From contig NZ_JAIOTY010000002.1 in NCBI RefSeq assembly GCF_019931275.1, positions 1,142,631 to 1,206,630 of the forward strand: a stretch of DNA of 64,000 bases, read 5' to 3'. The DNA is from Nitratidesulfovibrio sp. SRB-5 (lineage in GTDB: Bacteria > Desulfobacterota > Desulfovibrionia > Desulfovibrionales > Desulfovibrionaceae). Under the pieces are notes generated by a model. It was given only the letters and a program-made list of their open reading frames with translations. It was not told the DNA's origin and searched no databases. This document shows positions 40,313-46,254 of this stretch, in pieces. The position numbers and the translations under genes were made by a program. Numbering within the stretch: the first letter of the stretch is position 1; each line of letters opens with the position of its first letter.

Positions 40313-40918
40313 ATGAAGAAGATTCCCGAACGGTATCGGCGTAAGATCAGCAAGGACGAGATCAACGAGCTGCCCCTTGAGCGGTATGCGGGTGAAATCC
40401 GCATCGTCCGCAGCGAGGAGGAACTCGCTGATGCCGTCGACCGTCTGCGTGACGAGGACGTGCTGGGCTTCGACACCGAAACCCGCCCCACCTTCCGCAA
40501 GGGCAAGGTCAACCTGCCGTCGCTGGTGCAGCTTGCATGCAGCGACGTGGTCTACCTGTTCCAGCTCAACTGGCTGCCCTTTGGCGATGCGCTGGCCGCC
40601 GTGCTGTCCGACGCGGACATCGTCAAGACCGGCGTGGCCGTGCGCGACGACATCCGCGACTTGCAAAAGCTGTTCGCCTTCAACGACGCGGGCGTGGTGG
40701 ACCTGGGCGAGGTGGCGCGCGACTTGGGCCTTGAGACGCACGGTCTGCGCAACCTTGCCGCCAACTTTCTGGAAGTGCGCATTTCCAAGGGCGCCCAGTG
40801 TTCCAACTGGAGCAACCGCGAACTGGCCCCCCAGCAGGTGCTGTACGCCGCCACCGATGCCTGGGTCAGCCGCGAGATTCACCTGCGCATGCGCAGGCTG
40901 GGGCTCATCGACCGCTAG
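40313..40918 (+). CDS. 3'-5' exonuclease of the DEDDy (RNase D-like) family
   Basis: A 201-residue cytoplasmic exonuclease. The catalytic acids are visible: Asp54 and Glu56 in LGFDTETRPTF, an Asp in VAVRDDIRDL, and the Tyr/Asp pair in LYAATDAWVS, which marks the DEDDy subclass. There is no HRDC domain, so it is a stand-alone domain rather than full RNase D. Whether it acts on RNA or DNA cannot be told. ATG 40313 is chosen because the domain and the basic leader start there, though the ribosome-binding site is weak. The gene stands alone before the phosphate locus. Confidence 0.9.
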   Translation: MKKIPERYRRKISKDEINELPLERYAGEIRIVRSEEELADAVDRLRDEDVLGFDTETRPTFRKGKVNLPSLVQLACSDVVYLFQLNWLPFGDALAAVLSDADIVKTGVAVRDDIRDLQKLFAFNDAGVVDLGEVARDLGLETHGLRNLAANFLEVRISKGAQCSNWSNRELAPQQVLYAATDAWVSREIHLRMRRLGLIDR

Positions 40919-41210: not shown

Positions 41211-41903
41211 ATGACGAAAGAGCGCATTCTGGTGGTGGAAGACGACGAGGACATCCTGCAGTTGCTGACCTTCACCTTCGAATCCGCCGGGTTCGAGGTG
41301 CGCACGGCCACCACGGGGCGAGAAGGTCTGGAGATCGCGCTGCGGCAAAAGCCCGCGCTGGTTCTGCTGGACCTGATGCTGCCCGGCATGAGCGGCCTTG
41401 ACGTGTGCCGCGAACTGAAGCGCATGCCGGAAACGGAAGACGTGCCGGTAATCATGCTCACCGCGCGCGGCGAGGAAGTGGACCGCATCGTGGGGCTGGA
41501 ACTGGGCGCCGACGACTACGTGGTCAAGCCCTTCAGCCCGCGCGAACTGGTGCTGCGCATCCGTGCCGTGCTCAAGCGCGCGCAGGGCGTGGCCGAAAAC
41601 CCCCAGCGCTCGCAGTGGCAGGTCGACGGTCTGGCCCTGGACCTCGACGCGCACCGGGTGGAGGTGGACGGCGAGGAAGCCGCCCTGACCGCCACCGAAT
41701 TTCGCCTGCTGGCGGAACTGGTGCGCAACCGGGGCCGCGTGCGCACCCGCGACCAGTTGCTGAACACGGTGTGGGGCTACGAGTTCGAGGGGTACGCCCG
41801 CACGGTGGATACCCACGTGCGCAGGCTGCGCCAGAAGATCGGCGGCTACGCGGCCATGATCGAAACCATCCGGGGCGTGGGATACCGCTTCAAGGAACAG
41901 TAG
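41211..41903 (+). CDS. phoB: PhoB-like response regulator
   Basis: A 230-residue two-component regulator. The receiver domain has the acidic pocket EDDED (10-14), phospho-acceptor Asp54 in LLDLMLPG, and the switch Lys in DDYVVKPF. The C-terminal OmpR/PhoB winged helix ends with the recognition helix region ARTVDTHVRRLRQKI and the wing GVGYRFKE. Identification as PhoB rests on overall likeness, two upstream Pho boxes, and the downstream pstB and phoU. No phoR kinase gene follows, which is unusual. ATG 41211 follows aaggag. Confidence 0.92.
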   Translation: MTKERILVVEDDEDILQLLTFTFESAGFEVRTATTGREGLEIALRQKPALVLLDLMLPGMSGLDVCRELKRMPETEDVPVIMLTARGEEVDRIVGLELGADDYVVKPFSPRELVLRIRAVLKRAQGVAENPQRSQWQVDGLALDLDAHRVEVDGEEAALTATEFRLLAELVRNRGRVRTRDQLLNTVWGYEFEGYARTVDTHVRRLRQKIGGYAAMIETIRGVGYRFKEQ

Positions 41904-42147: not shown

Positions 42148-42915
42148 ATGCCAGACAGCAAGAACGTGAAGATGCACGCGGCGTCGCTGAATTTCTACTA
42201 CGGCGACTTTCAGGCGCTGCACGACATAAACCTGGAATTCGAACGCAACCAGGTTACCGCGCTCATCGGGCCTTCGGGCTGCGGCAAGAGCACCTTTTTG
42301 CGGTGCCTGAACCGCATGAACGACCTCATCCCCATATCGCGCGTGGATGGCGAGATATGCCTCGACGGCATGAACATCCACGACGCCCGGCTGGACGTGG
42401 TGGAACTGCGCCGCCGCGTGGGCATGGTGTTCCAGAAGCCCAACCCCTTCCCCAAGTCCATCTTCGAGAACGTGGCCTACGGGCTGCGCGTCAACGGCGT
42501 GCGCGACAAGGAATACATCGCCGAAAAGGTGGAGCAGAGCCTGCGCCATGCCGCCCTGTGGGACGAGGTGAAGGACCGCCTGCACGAATCCGGGCTGGGT
42601 CTTTCTGGCGGCCAGCAGCAGCGCCTGTGCATCGCGCGGGCCCTGGCCGTGGAGCCCGAGGTGCTGCTGATGGACGAGCCCGCCTCCGCGCTGGACCCCA
42701 TCGCCACCCAGAAGATCGAGGAACTCATCCACATCCTGAAGAAGGACTACACCATCATCATCGTGACCCACAGCATGCAGCAGGCGGCCCGCGTCTCCGA
42801 CCTGACGGCCTTCTTCTACATGGGGAAACTGGTGGAGTGGGGCGCGACGGAAATGATGTTCACCCGGCCGCGCAACAAGCAGACCGAAGACTATATCACC
42901 GGCCGGTTCGGGTAG
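42148..42915 (+). CDS. pstB: phosphate ABC transporter ATP-binding protein
   Basis: A 255-residue ABC ATPase that drives the Pst high-affinity phosphate importer. It has Walker [10 protein letters not shown], the PstB hallmark [10 protein letters not shown], the Q-loop [11 protein letters not shown], the signature LSGGQQQR and Walker [13 protein letters not shown]; length matches PstB. ATG 42148 has gggaacgag upstream. The partner genes pstS, pstC and pstA are not in this window, so the importer is split across the genome, or those genes lie elsewhere. The gap to phoB (244 bp) carries gcggcccgg(t/c)acgggca duplicates near 42005-42060 and no clear promoter. Confidence 0.96.
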
Positions 42916-43245: not shown

Positions 43246-43926
43246 GTGGAAACGCATTTTCACCAGCAATTGCAGAAACTTCGCCTGAAGGTGCTGGAAA
43301 TGGCCGCGCATTCGCAGACGGCCATCGAAACCGCCGTGCGCGCCTTGCAGCACCGCGATGCCGACGCCGCGCGTTCGGTCATCGCGGGTGACAAGCTCAT
43401 CAACACCATAGAGTGCGAGATCGACGAACTCAGCTTCCGGCTGCTGGCGCTGGACCAGCCCATGGCCGTGGACCTGCGCATCATCGTGGCCATCATGCGG
43501 GCCAGCATGCATCTGGAGCGGGTGGGCGACGAGGCCGTGAACATCGCCGAGGCGGCCATGTTCCTGGCATCCCGCCCGCCGTTGCCGGAAATGCCCAGCC
43601 TGAACGAACTGAGCACCCACGCCGTGGCCATGTTCCGCAAGGCGGTGGTGGCCTTCCGCGAAAGCGACGCCGGGCTGGCCCTTGAACTGCGCGTGCTGGA
43701 CAAGCGCTGCAACCAGTTGGACGTGCAGGTGCTGCGCGAATTGATGGACTACATGAGCCGCGAAAGTCCCGCCGTGGAGCGTTCGGTGCACACCATCCTT
43801 GTCTCGCGCAGTCTGGAGCGGGTGGGCGACCTGTCCACCAACGTGGGTGAAACGGTGATGTTCATCGTCGAAGGGCTGAACATCAAGCACAACTTCCAGA
43901 TCAATTCCGGCGGCGCGTGCGGCTAG
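43246..43926 (+). CDS. phoU: phosphate signalling protein PhoU
   Basis: A 226-residue soluble all-helical protein that links the Pst importer to PhoR/PhoB signalling. Two PhoU repeats are visible, each with the metal-binding ExxxD-type motif: HLERVGDEAVNIAE (about 90-103) and SLERVGDLSTNVGE (about 190-203). The start is GTG 43246, six bases after aggag. It lies 330 bp behind pstB and is followed by a strong terminator, closing the phoB-pstB-phoU group. Confidence 0.95.
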   Translation: METHFHQQLQKLRLKVLEMAAHSQTAIETAVRALQHRDADAARSVIAGDKLINTIECEIDELSFRLLALDQPMAVDLRIIVAIMRASMHLERVGDEAVNIAEAAMFLASRPPLPEMPSLNELSTHAVAMFRKAVVAFRESDAGLALELRVLDKRCNQLDVQVLRELMDYMSRESPAVERSVHTILVSRSLERVGDLSTNVGETVMFIVEGLNIKHNFQINSGGACG

Positions 43927-44100: not shown

Positions 44101-44382
44101 ATGACCCAATACGGCAAGCGTACCGTGCAGTTTTCCGTAACGCCGGAAGAAGCCCCCGGCCTTGTGCGCCGCATAGGCGAGCAGATGGCCGATGGCGTGA
44201 TTACCCTGGAAGGCCGTTCCATAGAGATCGACGGCTTCGAGAGCATCGGCATTTCGCTGAAGCGCACCGGCGACAAGCTGCGCGCCCGCGTCAAGGTGAA
44301 GTTTCCCAAGCGGCCCGGCGAGGTGGGTGACGCGGGCGAGGTGGGCAGCGATGCCGATGACAGTGACGGGGATGACGATTAG
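44101..44382 (+). CDS. amphi-Trp-domain small protein
   Basis: A 93-residue soluble protein. The segment QFSVTPEEAPGLVRRIGEQMADG, cut here as PEEAPGLVRRIGEQMADG, followed by ITLEGRSIEIDG and a beta strand ISLKRTGDKLRARVKVKF, matches my recollection of the amphi-Trp domain, a small domain that occurs with the GAK system. This copy lacks tryptophan, so it is a divergent member. The tail after residue 72 is acidic (DADDSDGDDD). ATG 44101 follows cggag. Its end overlaps the start of the CofD-like gene by about 32 bp, so the two are co-translated. Confidence 0.65.
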   Translation: MTQYGKRTVQFSVTPEEAPGLVRRIGEQMADGVITLEGRSIEIDGFESIGISLKRTGDKLRARVKVKFPKRPGEVGDAGEVGSDADDSDGDDD

Positions 44383-45865
44383 CCGTCCTGCGGCATCCGC
44401 GGGCCACGGCGACCTGGTCGCCGGTGCGTGTCAGGTCGACCTGGTCGCCGGTGCGTGTCAGGTCGACCAGGTCGCCGGCGTGTGCAAGGTCGACCCGGTC
44501 GTCGGCGTGTGCAAGGTCGACCCGGTCGCCGGTTCCGGCCCGGCGGCGCATGCGGCTGCCGGAAGGGGGGCAGCCGACGATGCCGCGCATGGTCCGCGCA
44601 TCGTCTTCTTTACCGGGGGCACGGCGCTGAAGTCGCTCAGCCATGCCCTGACGGGCCGGACGCACAATTCCGTGCATCTGGTCACCCCCTTCGATTCCGG
44701 CGGCAGCACGGCGGTGCTGCGGCGCTACATCCGCATGCCCGCCGTGGGCGACCTGCGCAACAGGCTGCTGGCCCTGGCCGACCCCGCCGTGGCCACGCCG
44801 CCGCTGGTGGCCCTGTGCGACCTGCGCCTGGCCGATGCCGGGGCGTACGACACCCTGATGCAGCGGCTGTATGCGCTGGCCTCGGAGCGCGACCCCGCCT
44901 GGCGCGGCATAGACCCGCTGGTGGCCGACGTGCTGCGCCTGCACCTGCGCTGGTTTCTGGAATTCGCGCCGCCCGGCTTCGACCCGCACGGCGCGTGCCT
45001 GGGCAACCTGCTGCTGGCGGGCGGCTACCTGCGCCATGGCGGCGGGCTGGGGCCGGTGCTGCATCTGTTCACGCGGCTGCTGCGGGTGCGGGGCACGGTG
45101 GCCCCCATCGTGGACGACGACCTGCATCTGGCGGCGGAACTGACTGACGGCACCGTGCTGCTGGGGCAGCACCGCATCACCGGCAAGGGCGCGCCCGGCA
45201 TCACCGCGCCGGTGCGCCGCCTGTTCCTGACCCGCACCCGTCCCGATGGTGACGGCCAAGGCGGAGACGGCGGGCCAAACGGACACAACGGACCGACCGG
45301 ACCGGTCTGGCAGGTCTGGCAGAACGGGGCCGGGGGTGAAGAACGCCACGGTGCCGAGGGCGGAAATTCCGCACCGCCCGCCGAGGCGCGTGTGCCCGTA
45401 TCCGGCGTGGCCGCCCGGCACATCGCGGAAGCGGACCTGATCTGCTTTCCCATGGGCAGTTTCTACACCAGCGTGCTGGCCAATCTTTTGCCCGAAGGGG
45501 TGGGGCGCGCCGTGGCCGGGGCTCCGTGCCCCAAGGTGTACGTGCCCAACAGTGGCACGGACCCGGAACAGCTGGGCCTGTCCGTGGCCGATTGCGCCGC
45601 CGCCCTGCTGGCCGCGCTGCGGCGTGACGCGGGCGCTGACGTGCCCGCTGACCGACTGCTGAATACGGTGGTGGTGGATAGCCGCAACGGGGTGTACCCC
45701 GGCGGCATCGACCACGAAGGGCTGCGCGCGCAGGGGGTGGATGTGCTGGATGCGCCGGTGGTGCGCGCACTGCCCGGCGGCGGGGCGCAACCCGTCACGG
45801 TGGCGGGGCGGCACGACGCCGACGCGGTGGCCGACCTGCTGATGGGGCTGGCGCGCCCGCAGTGA
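44351..45865 (+). CDS. CofD-like protein (probable GAK-system member)
   Basis: A protein of about 504 residues in the CofD/YvcK superfamily of 2-phospho-L-lactate transferase-like enzymes. The nucleotide-binding start RIVFFTGGTALKSLSHAL lies near residue 83, followed by HLVTPFDSGGSTAVLRR, LGNLLLAGGYL, DLICFPMGSFYTSVLANLLPEGVG in part, and KVYVPNSGTDPE. Compared with YvcK it has a 35-residue Gly/Pro-rich insertion near 300-335. The N-terminal 80 residues contain four 9-residue repeats of type DLVAGACQV, each with a cysteine. The start is uncertain: GTG 44327, ATG 44351 (with gaggtggg) or ATG 44372. Pairing with the amphi-Trp gene suggests the GAK system. The other GAK members (ATP-grasp, HprK-like kinase, XXXCH protein) are not in this window. 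Confidence 0.8.
   Translation: MPMTVTGMTISRPAASAGHGDLVAGACQVDLVAGACQVDQVAGVCKVDPVVGVCKVDPVAGSGPAAHAAAGRGAADDAAHGPRIVFFTGGTALKSLSHALTGRTHNSVHLVTPFDSGGSTAVLRRYIRMPAVGDLRNRLLALADPAVATPPLVALCDLRLADAGAYDTLMQRLYALASERDPAWRGIDPLVADVLRLHLRWFLEFAPPGFDPHGACLGNLLLAGGYLRHGGGLGPVLHLFTRLLRVRGTVAPIVDDDLHLAAELTDGTVLLGQHRITGKGAPGITAPVRRLFLTRTRPDGDGQGGDGGPNGHNGPTGPVWQVWQNGAGGEERHGAEGGNSAPPAEARVPVSGVAARHIAEADLICFPMGSFYTSVLANLLPEGVGRAVAGAPCPKVYVPNSGTDPEQLGLSVADCAAALLAALRRDAGADVPADRLLNTVVVDSRNGVYPGGIDHEGLRAQGVDVLDAPVVRALPGGGAQPVTVAGRHDADAVADLLMGLARPQ
44411..44533 (+). repeat. 27-bp in-frame tandem repeat in the CofD-like gene
   Basis: Four 27-bp units (44411, 44438, 44465, 44492) plus a 15-bp part encode DLVAGACQV, DLVAGACQV, DQVAGVCKV, DPVVGVCKV and DPVAG. 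The first two are identical at DNA level, a sign of recent duplication. Confidence 0.9.
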
Positions 45866-46197: not shown

Positions 46198-46230
46198 AAA
46201 CGCCCCCGCGTGCAGTGCACGCGGGGGCGT
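46198..46230 (-). terminator. terminator of alaS
   Basis: Arms cgcccccgcgtgca and tgcacgcgggggcg form a 14-bp perfect stem; on the minus strand tttctggttt follows. It lies about 25 bp beyond the alaS stop codon. Confidence 0.85.
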
Positions 46231-46254
46231 CGTCTTTCGTCCTGTCGGGGGCAG

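Follow-up and report, generated by a model that had tools for sequence, protein, structure and literature searches.

A GAK-independent CofD-like gene and a free XXXCH-N-type domain behind phoU in Nitratidesulfovibrio: a surviving second paralogue and possible YvcK/GlmR-like nucleotide-sugar binder

Our analysis of a 64,000-nt stretch of the genome of Nitratidesulfovibrio sp. SRB-5 (the window, G000:C2:1142631-1206630; genome of 4.12 Mb, 99.98% complete) showed that a pair of overlapping genes, which a preliminary description had read as a piece of the orphan GAK system, is the surviving second paralogue of a CofD-like family rather than a displaced part of that system. We tentatively propose, with a probability of roughly 0.4, that the CofD-like protein is a GAK-independent, YvcK/GlmR-like binder of nucleotide diphosphates or nucleotide-diphosphate sugars, which would act with the small protein encoded just upstream as its adaptor and is tied by position to PhoU.

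The pair forms the end of a plus-strand gene cluster. It runs from an RNase D-like 3'-5' exonuclease domain protein (40313-40918; PF01612, 87.8 bits) through a PhoB-like response regulator (41211-41903; Response_reg and Trans_reg_C domains, with TIGR02154 as the best family at 257.5 bits, below its cut-off of 296), the phosphate ABC transporter ATPase gene pstB (42148-42915; TIGR00972, 417 bits, above the cut-off) and phoU (43246-43926; TIGR02135, 202 bits) to the small gene (44101-44382, 93 aa) and the CofD-like gene (44372-45865), and is followed by a convergent alaS. No sigma-70-type promoter was found between phoU and the small gene. A strong G+C-rich palindrome between the CofD-like gene and alaS (46199-46231; stem of 14-15 bp, readable on both strands; two found versus 1.3 expected from shuffles) is a probable bidirectional terminator. 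Both reading frames described earlier were recovered, as was the overlap on which translational coupling had been claimed. The mechanical open reading frame of the CofD-like gene opens with a GTG at 44327 and ends at 45865; the start conserved in the genus is the ATG at 44372, which gives an 11-nt overlap with the stop codon of the small gene (44380-44382; ATGACGATTAG), and an overlap of about 11 nt is found in most genus relatives. Between this ATG and the conserved core (from 44591, GPRIVFF on) lies a poorly conserved, fast-changing N-terminal extension that varies among relatives and contains, in frame, 4.6 copies of a 27-bp tandem repeat (44410-44533).

The placement of the larger protein in the GAK-named family was borne out, with a score of 432.6 bits against TIGR04357 (CofD_rel_GAK, cut-off 340), and the GGT nucleotide-binding start was found as claimed (IVFFTGGTALK). 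The YvcK model TIGR01826 gave 103.6 bits against a cut-off of 196, by which the protein is rejected as a YvcK orthologue at the model level.

The identification of the small protein as amphi-Trp fared less well. No NCBIfam or Pfam model matched it even at E<=10, the amphi-Trp models TIGR04354 and PF20068 included, and neither the window protein nor any of its orthologues has the conserved Trp that is invariant, near the domain end, in the 18 amphi-Trp rows. In a search with the orthologue profile, the next matches after the orthologues were the N-termini of XXXCH proteins (E 1.2e-14 and E 4e-17), in parts that lie in the same frame directly upstream of the XXXCH domain. By hhalign the small protein matched this N-terminal domain (XXXCH-N) with 99.0% (P 3.7e-18, 73 columns), whereas amphi-Trp reached 70% and the XXXCH C-domain came out near zero; identity to XXXCH-N reaches 36%. 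The amphi-Trp assignment is thus rejected at the model level in favor of XXXCH-N as the best relative, and what stands of it is a distant kinship. XXXCH-N itself matched amphi-Trp with 77%, the pooled small/XXXCH-N profile matched amphi-Trp with 83%, and one XXXCH protein has a weak amphi-Trp model match at its N-terminus. The two are thus probably remote variants of a single domain, with the small protein on the XXXCH side. An AF2 model (30-row alignment) predicts a beta-alpha-beta4 fold with a disordered acidic tail (pLDDT 83.5; about 95 over residues 11-70). A fold search with the small protein matched no PDB entry at E<=0.001, VIA Z did not exceed 5.0 and so stayed in the uninformative range, and searches of PDB sequences with the small/XXXCH-N and amphi-Trp profiles gave no natural relative.

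The small gene is found behind phoU in every readable locus (8 genomes of the Nitratidesulfovibrio group and 4 of g22, L098 being unclear), and a CofD-like gene follows it in 9 of these 12. The complete order (exonuclease, phoB, pstB, phoU, small gene, CofD) is that of Nitratidesulfovibrio and of one g22 genome, while three genomes (G096, G132 and G158) keep the phoU-small arrangement with CofD missing there. At two loci (L099:2003-2704 and L100:2009-2710) the place of CofD behind phoU-small is taken by a gene for a 233-aa family 3 solute-binding-like protein (PF00497, tested on L099).

This distribution would fit a small protein that is mainly a partner of PhoU and joins PhoU/PstB phosphate signalling, the CofD-like gene being a passenger or a later recruit. 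The composition of GAK operons points the same way: their typical order, in Desulfovibrionaceae and in more distant bacteria, is XXXCH, an unnamed family, amphi-Trp, a PhoU-domain protein, ATP-grasp, HprK_rel_B, CofD and amphi-Trp, and the PhoU-domain protein of one relative (G066) has PhoU fused to an APH/EcKL-type kinase. We know of no GAK definition that includes the PhoU-domain protein. Its occurrence in these operons lends some weight to the location of the window pair behind phoU, which is nonetheless still a matter of linkage. Against a primary partnership with PhoU, the small gene overlaps the CofD-like gene, and in other genera an XXXCH protein with the same domain stands directly before CofD with no phoU; we consider such a partnership unlikely, albeit worth keeping in mind.

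Two GAK operon families deserve separate mention. The PhoU-domain protein lies between amphi-Trp and ATP-grasp at L055:10534-12306 (minus strand) and in the same place in many GAK loci of L154-L219. The unnamed family ('c30') comprises proteins of about 390-440 aa conserved across phyla (for example L055:12897-14213 and L054:12481-13713, both on the minus strand), and its copy in G066 matched no NCBIfam or Pfam model. Our literature search found no paper mentioning the GAK system or the amphi-Trp domain; a Desulfovibrio nitrate-resistance cluster (PMC4001038), encountered via its ATP-grasp domain, is a different gene cluster.

The preliminary description had the pair as a true, displaced GAK part, in which a phospho group would be transferred onto a GAK-made cofactor or peptide. 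The family score above the TIGR04357 cut-off is in line with this reading, as is the full GAK operon carried by same-genus relatives. On the other hand, profile searches of the host genome gave no match for the GAK ATP-grasp (TIGR04356, grasp_GAK), for HprK_rel_B (TIGR04355, which is present in the GAK operon of G066) or, even at E 10, for the XXXCH domain (TIGR04358), of which the genome has just an N-domain homologue, the small protein. Of the other GAK members sought, only amphi-Trp was found above the cut-off, as a single gene on another contig (C3:20825) and not beside the CofD-like gene. A lack of further GAK members, which the preliminary description had named as refuting its reading, thus holds for this genome apart from that one gene. 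This lone amphi-Trp protein (L035:8796-9392, plus strand) has 198 aa and a Lys/Asp-rich tail. All 7 same-genus relatives have grasp_GAK with a high-scoring CofD (485-525 bits) about 2.4 kb away, and in addition have another CofD that follows the small gene and scores 428.8 bits in G038. The GAK operon of G066 occupies 9.05 kb, versus 255 bp at the matching host site, between flanks that are 84-93% identical (the detailed comparison is with G066; G038 has matching neighboring genes). Since the two flanks are contiguous on contig C1, an assembly gap is rejected as the cause of the missing genes. The simplest reading is that the GAK operon was lost in the host lineage, and this loss at a syntenic site, together with the second CofD of the relatives, identifies the window pair as the surviving second paralogue.

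The phylogeny agrees with this identification. In a tree of 142 CofD rows, the window protein falls, together with other Desulfovibrionaceae CofDs, into a group of 36 rows (SH-aLRT 99). Of these, 26 are linked to the exonuclease and 7 to the small gene, 3 are unlabelled and none comes from a GAK operon; all GAK-operon CofDs (63 of 63) lie outside the group. With two YvcK sequences as the root, a slower tree grouped 13 of the 14 rows of this clade (clade B) with a support of 95/96 and gave 96/96 for the GAK-containing side; one sequence (L048) was unplaced at the base. Within this sample clade B CofDs never occur in GAK operons. For example, Desulfovibrio proper (D. piger among them) has mnmE, then the exonuclease, then CofD, with a homologue of the window exonuclease adjoining the clade B CofD and neither small gene nor GAK, and no grasp_GAK or XXXCH was found in those listed Desulfovibrio (g40) genomes that carry a clade B CofD. 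As the pair is kept in a genome that has no ATP-grasp, HprK_rel_B or XXXCH, and its clade has no GAK-operon member, the displaced-part reading is largely refuted for this genome and now appears improbable. In genus g8 (L036, L039, L040, L047 and L050) we also observed a second CofD beside an endonuclease IV-like gene (Nfo-type, by eye). This CofD, which some genomes have at a distance of 8-11 kb from the GAK operon, belongs neither to clade B nor to the GAK-operon copies.

Loss of the operon raises the question of whether the pair is a relic in decay. Apart from the absent operon, such a reading would rest on the 27-bp repeat that fills the N-terminal extension and on a central stretch of the CofD-like protein that is of low complexity and varies in length. 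However, both frames are open, and low-complexity insertions are also present in GAK-keeping relatives. In pairwise comparisons of the host genome with genus relatives, the small gene has dN/dS values of 0.08-0.32 and the CofD core has 0.25-0.32 (compared with 0.13-0.16 for phoU), and pairs that include the host genome are no higher than, and similar to, those among GAK-keeping relatives. Such pairwise values may mostly reflect the time before GAK loss, and for that reason they show that the gene is functional but fall short of proving constraint since then. We regard decay as quite improbable. Purifying selection also makes chance open reading frames very unlikely, and that candidate was ruled out on the dN/dS values.

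An F420-type CofD, which would load a flavin cofactor with a phospho-carboxylate taken from a guanosine-diphosphate donor, would suit the match to PF01933 above its gathering score (131 bits) but is very improbable, as all solved-structure relatives at E<=0.01 are YvcK/UPF0052 (2hzb, 2o2z and 2ppv, E ~1e-31) with no F420 CofD among them, GGTG is replaced by GGTA, and the site carries the YvcK-type GDxRN and RH motifs.

B. subtilis YvcK almost loses its ability to bind UDP-GlcNAc when Y265 or R301 is changed, with further contributions from T14 and N218 (PMC5482804). The window protein retains all four of the corresponding YvcK contact residues (T13, N217, Y264 and R300) in a 147-row alignment, the Tyr column being aligner-dependent, with hmmsearch putting the Tyr elsewhere. 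The Arg and the His that follows it separate clade B from the GAK-operon CofDs: R300 is retained in 26 of 38 clade B rows and H301 in 36 of 38, versus 7 of 63 GAK-operon rows for R300 and none of their common residue pairs for H301. The pair RH occurs in 20 of 29 exonuclease-linked and in 6 of 7 readable small-linked rows, whereas the GAK-operon rows mostly have YL or YI (Tyr/Leu-Leu/Ile) at this position. For Listeria GlmR, activity as an accessory uridyltransferase has been reported (PMC10128056). None of the 217 Desulfovibrionaceae genomes reaches the YvcK cut-off. From the retained ligand residues, the Arg-His split between clades, the family-wide lack of a YvcK and the report on GlmR, we infer a YvcK/GlmR-like role. 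Counted against it are the Ser that stands in for the second Asp of DDGGS in YvcK (the first is kept), with D40, D41 and N198 being the residues altered to cripple Listeria GlmR (PMC10128056), the aligner dependence of the Tyr and an Ala at the Arg position in L048.

If this YvcK/GlmR-like reading is right, the CofD-like protein would hold a nucleotide diphosphate or nucleotide sugar in a pocket formed by its conserved Thr, Asn, Tyr and Arg. It would either sense this ligand or catalyze a nucleotidyl or phospho transfer, thereby filling the role of the YvcK that Desulfovibrionaceae lack. The small domain, which would share a message with the CofD-like protein and whose gene overlaps the start of CofD, may serve as an adaptor, in keeping with the place of XXXCH-N next to CofD in the free XXXCH-CofD and XXXCH-CofD-amphi-Trp modules of other genera (L120-L133). 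These modules lie away from ATP-grasp, in some cases in genomes without an above-cut-off grasp_GAK; together with the partial loci they show that GAK parts separate often and that XXXCH-N beside CofD is one recurring unit. The adaptor role is weakened by the three genomes with phoU-small only and by the exonuclease-CofD arrangement of Desulfovibrio. A direct contact between the two proteins, as suggested previously, is possible; it is not obligatory, because of those same three relatives. The pair would have to work without the GAK ATP-grasp and HprK enzymes, since the host genome has none. The position behind phoU, which is linkage only, suggests that production or readout of the pair may be coupled to phosphate status.

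A wider formulation takes clade B as a whole to be a nucleotide-sugar sensor or transferase that replaces YvcK in Desulfovibrionaceae independently of GAK and that, in the Nitratidesulfovibrio group, is wired to phosphate control via a free XXXCH-N adaptor behind phoU; in our opinion this is doubtful. If true, the PhoU-domain protein of GAK operons would hint that GAK overall handles phosphate or phosphorylated metabolites. The host genome presents a natural loss of the GAK core with one CofD paralogue kept, which sets the CofD-like activity apart from the steps of the ATP-grasp and the kinase and offers a two-gene unit for nucleotide-sugar binding tests in organisms without YvcK. It also follows that the TIGR04357 name alone is no marker of a GAK system.

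Overall, the pair resembles four known systems in part. With the GAK XXXCH protein (TIGR04358) the small protein shares a homologous N-terminal domain over about 73 columns; unlike it, the small protein lacks the C-terminal XXXCH domain and is encoded by a free gene behind phoU. The amphi-Trp domain (TIGR04354, PF20068) appears to be its distant kin and of the same domain type, except that the small protein lacks the conserved Trp. The CofD-like protein has the GGTA, FDSGGS and AVGDxRN motifs and the family score of the GAK CofD-like family (TIGR04357), and it differs from the GAK-operon CofDs in standing outside such an operon, in a separate group, with the Arg-His pair kept and in a genome without the GAK core. 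Compared with YvcK/GlmR of Bacillus and Listeria (TIGR01826; 2hzb, 2o2z), it scores below the YvcK cut-off, has GGTA for GGTG and DS for DD, and its core of about 400 residues contains insertions, whereas the fold, as judged by sequence, is the same and the UDP-sugar contact residues are kept.
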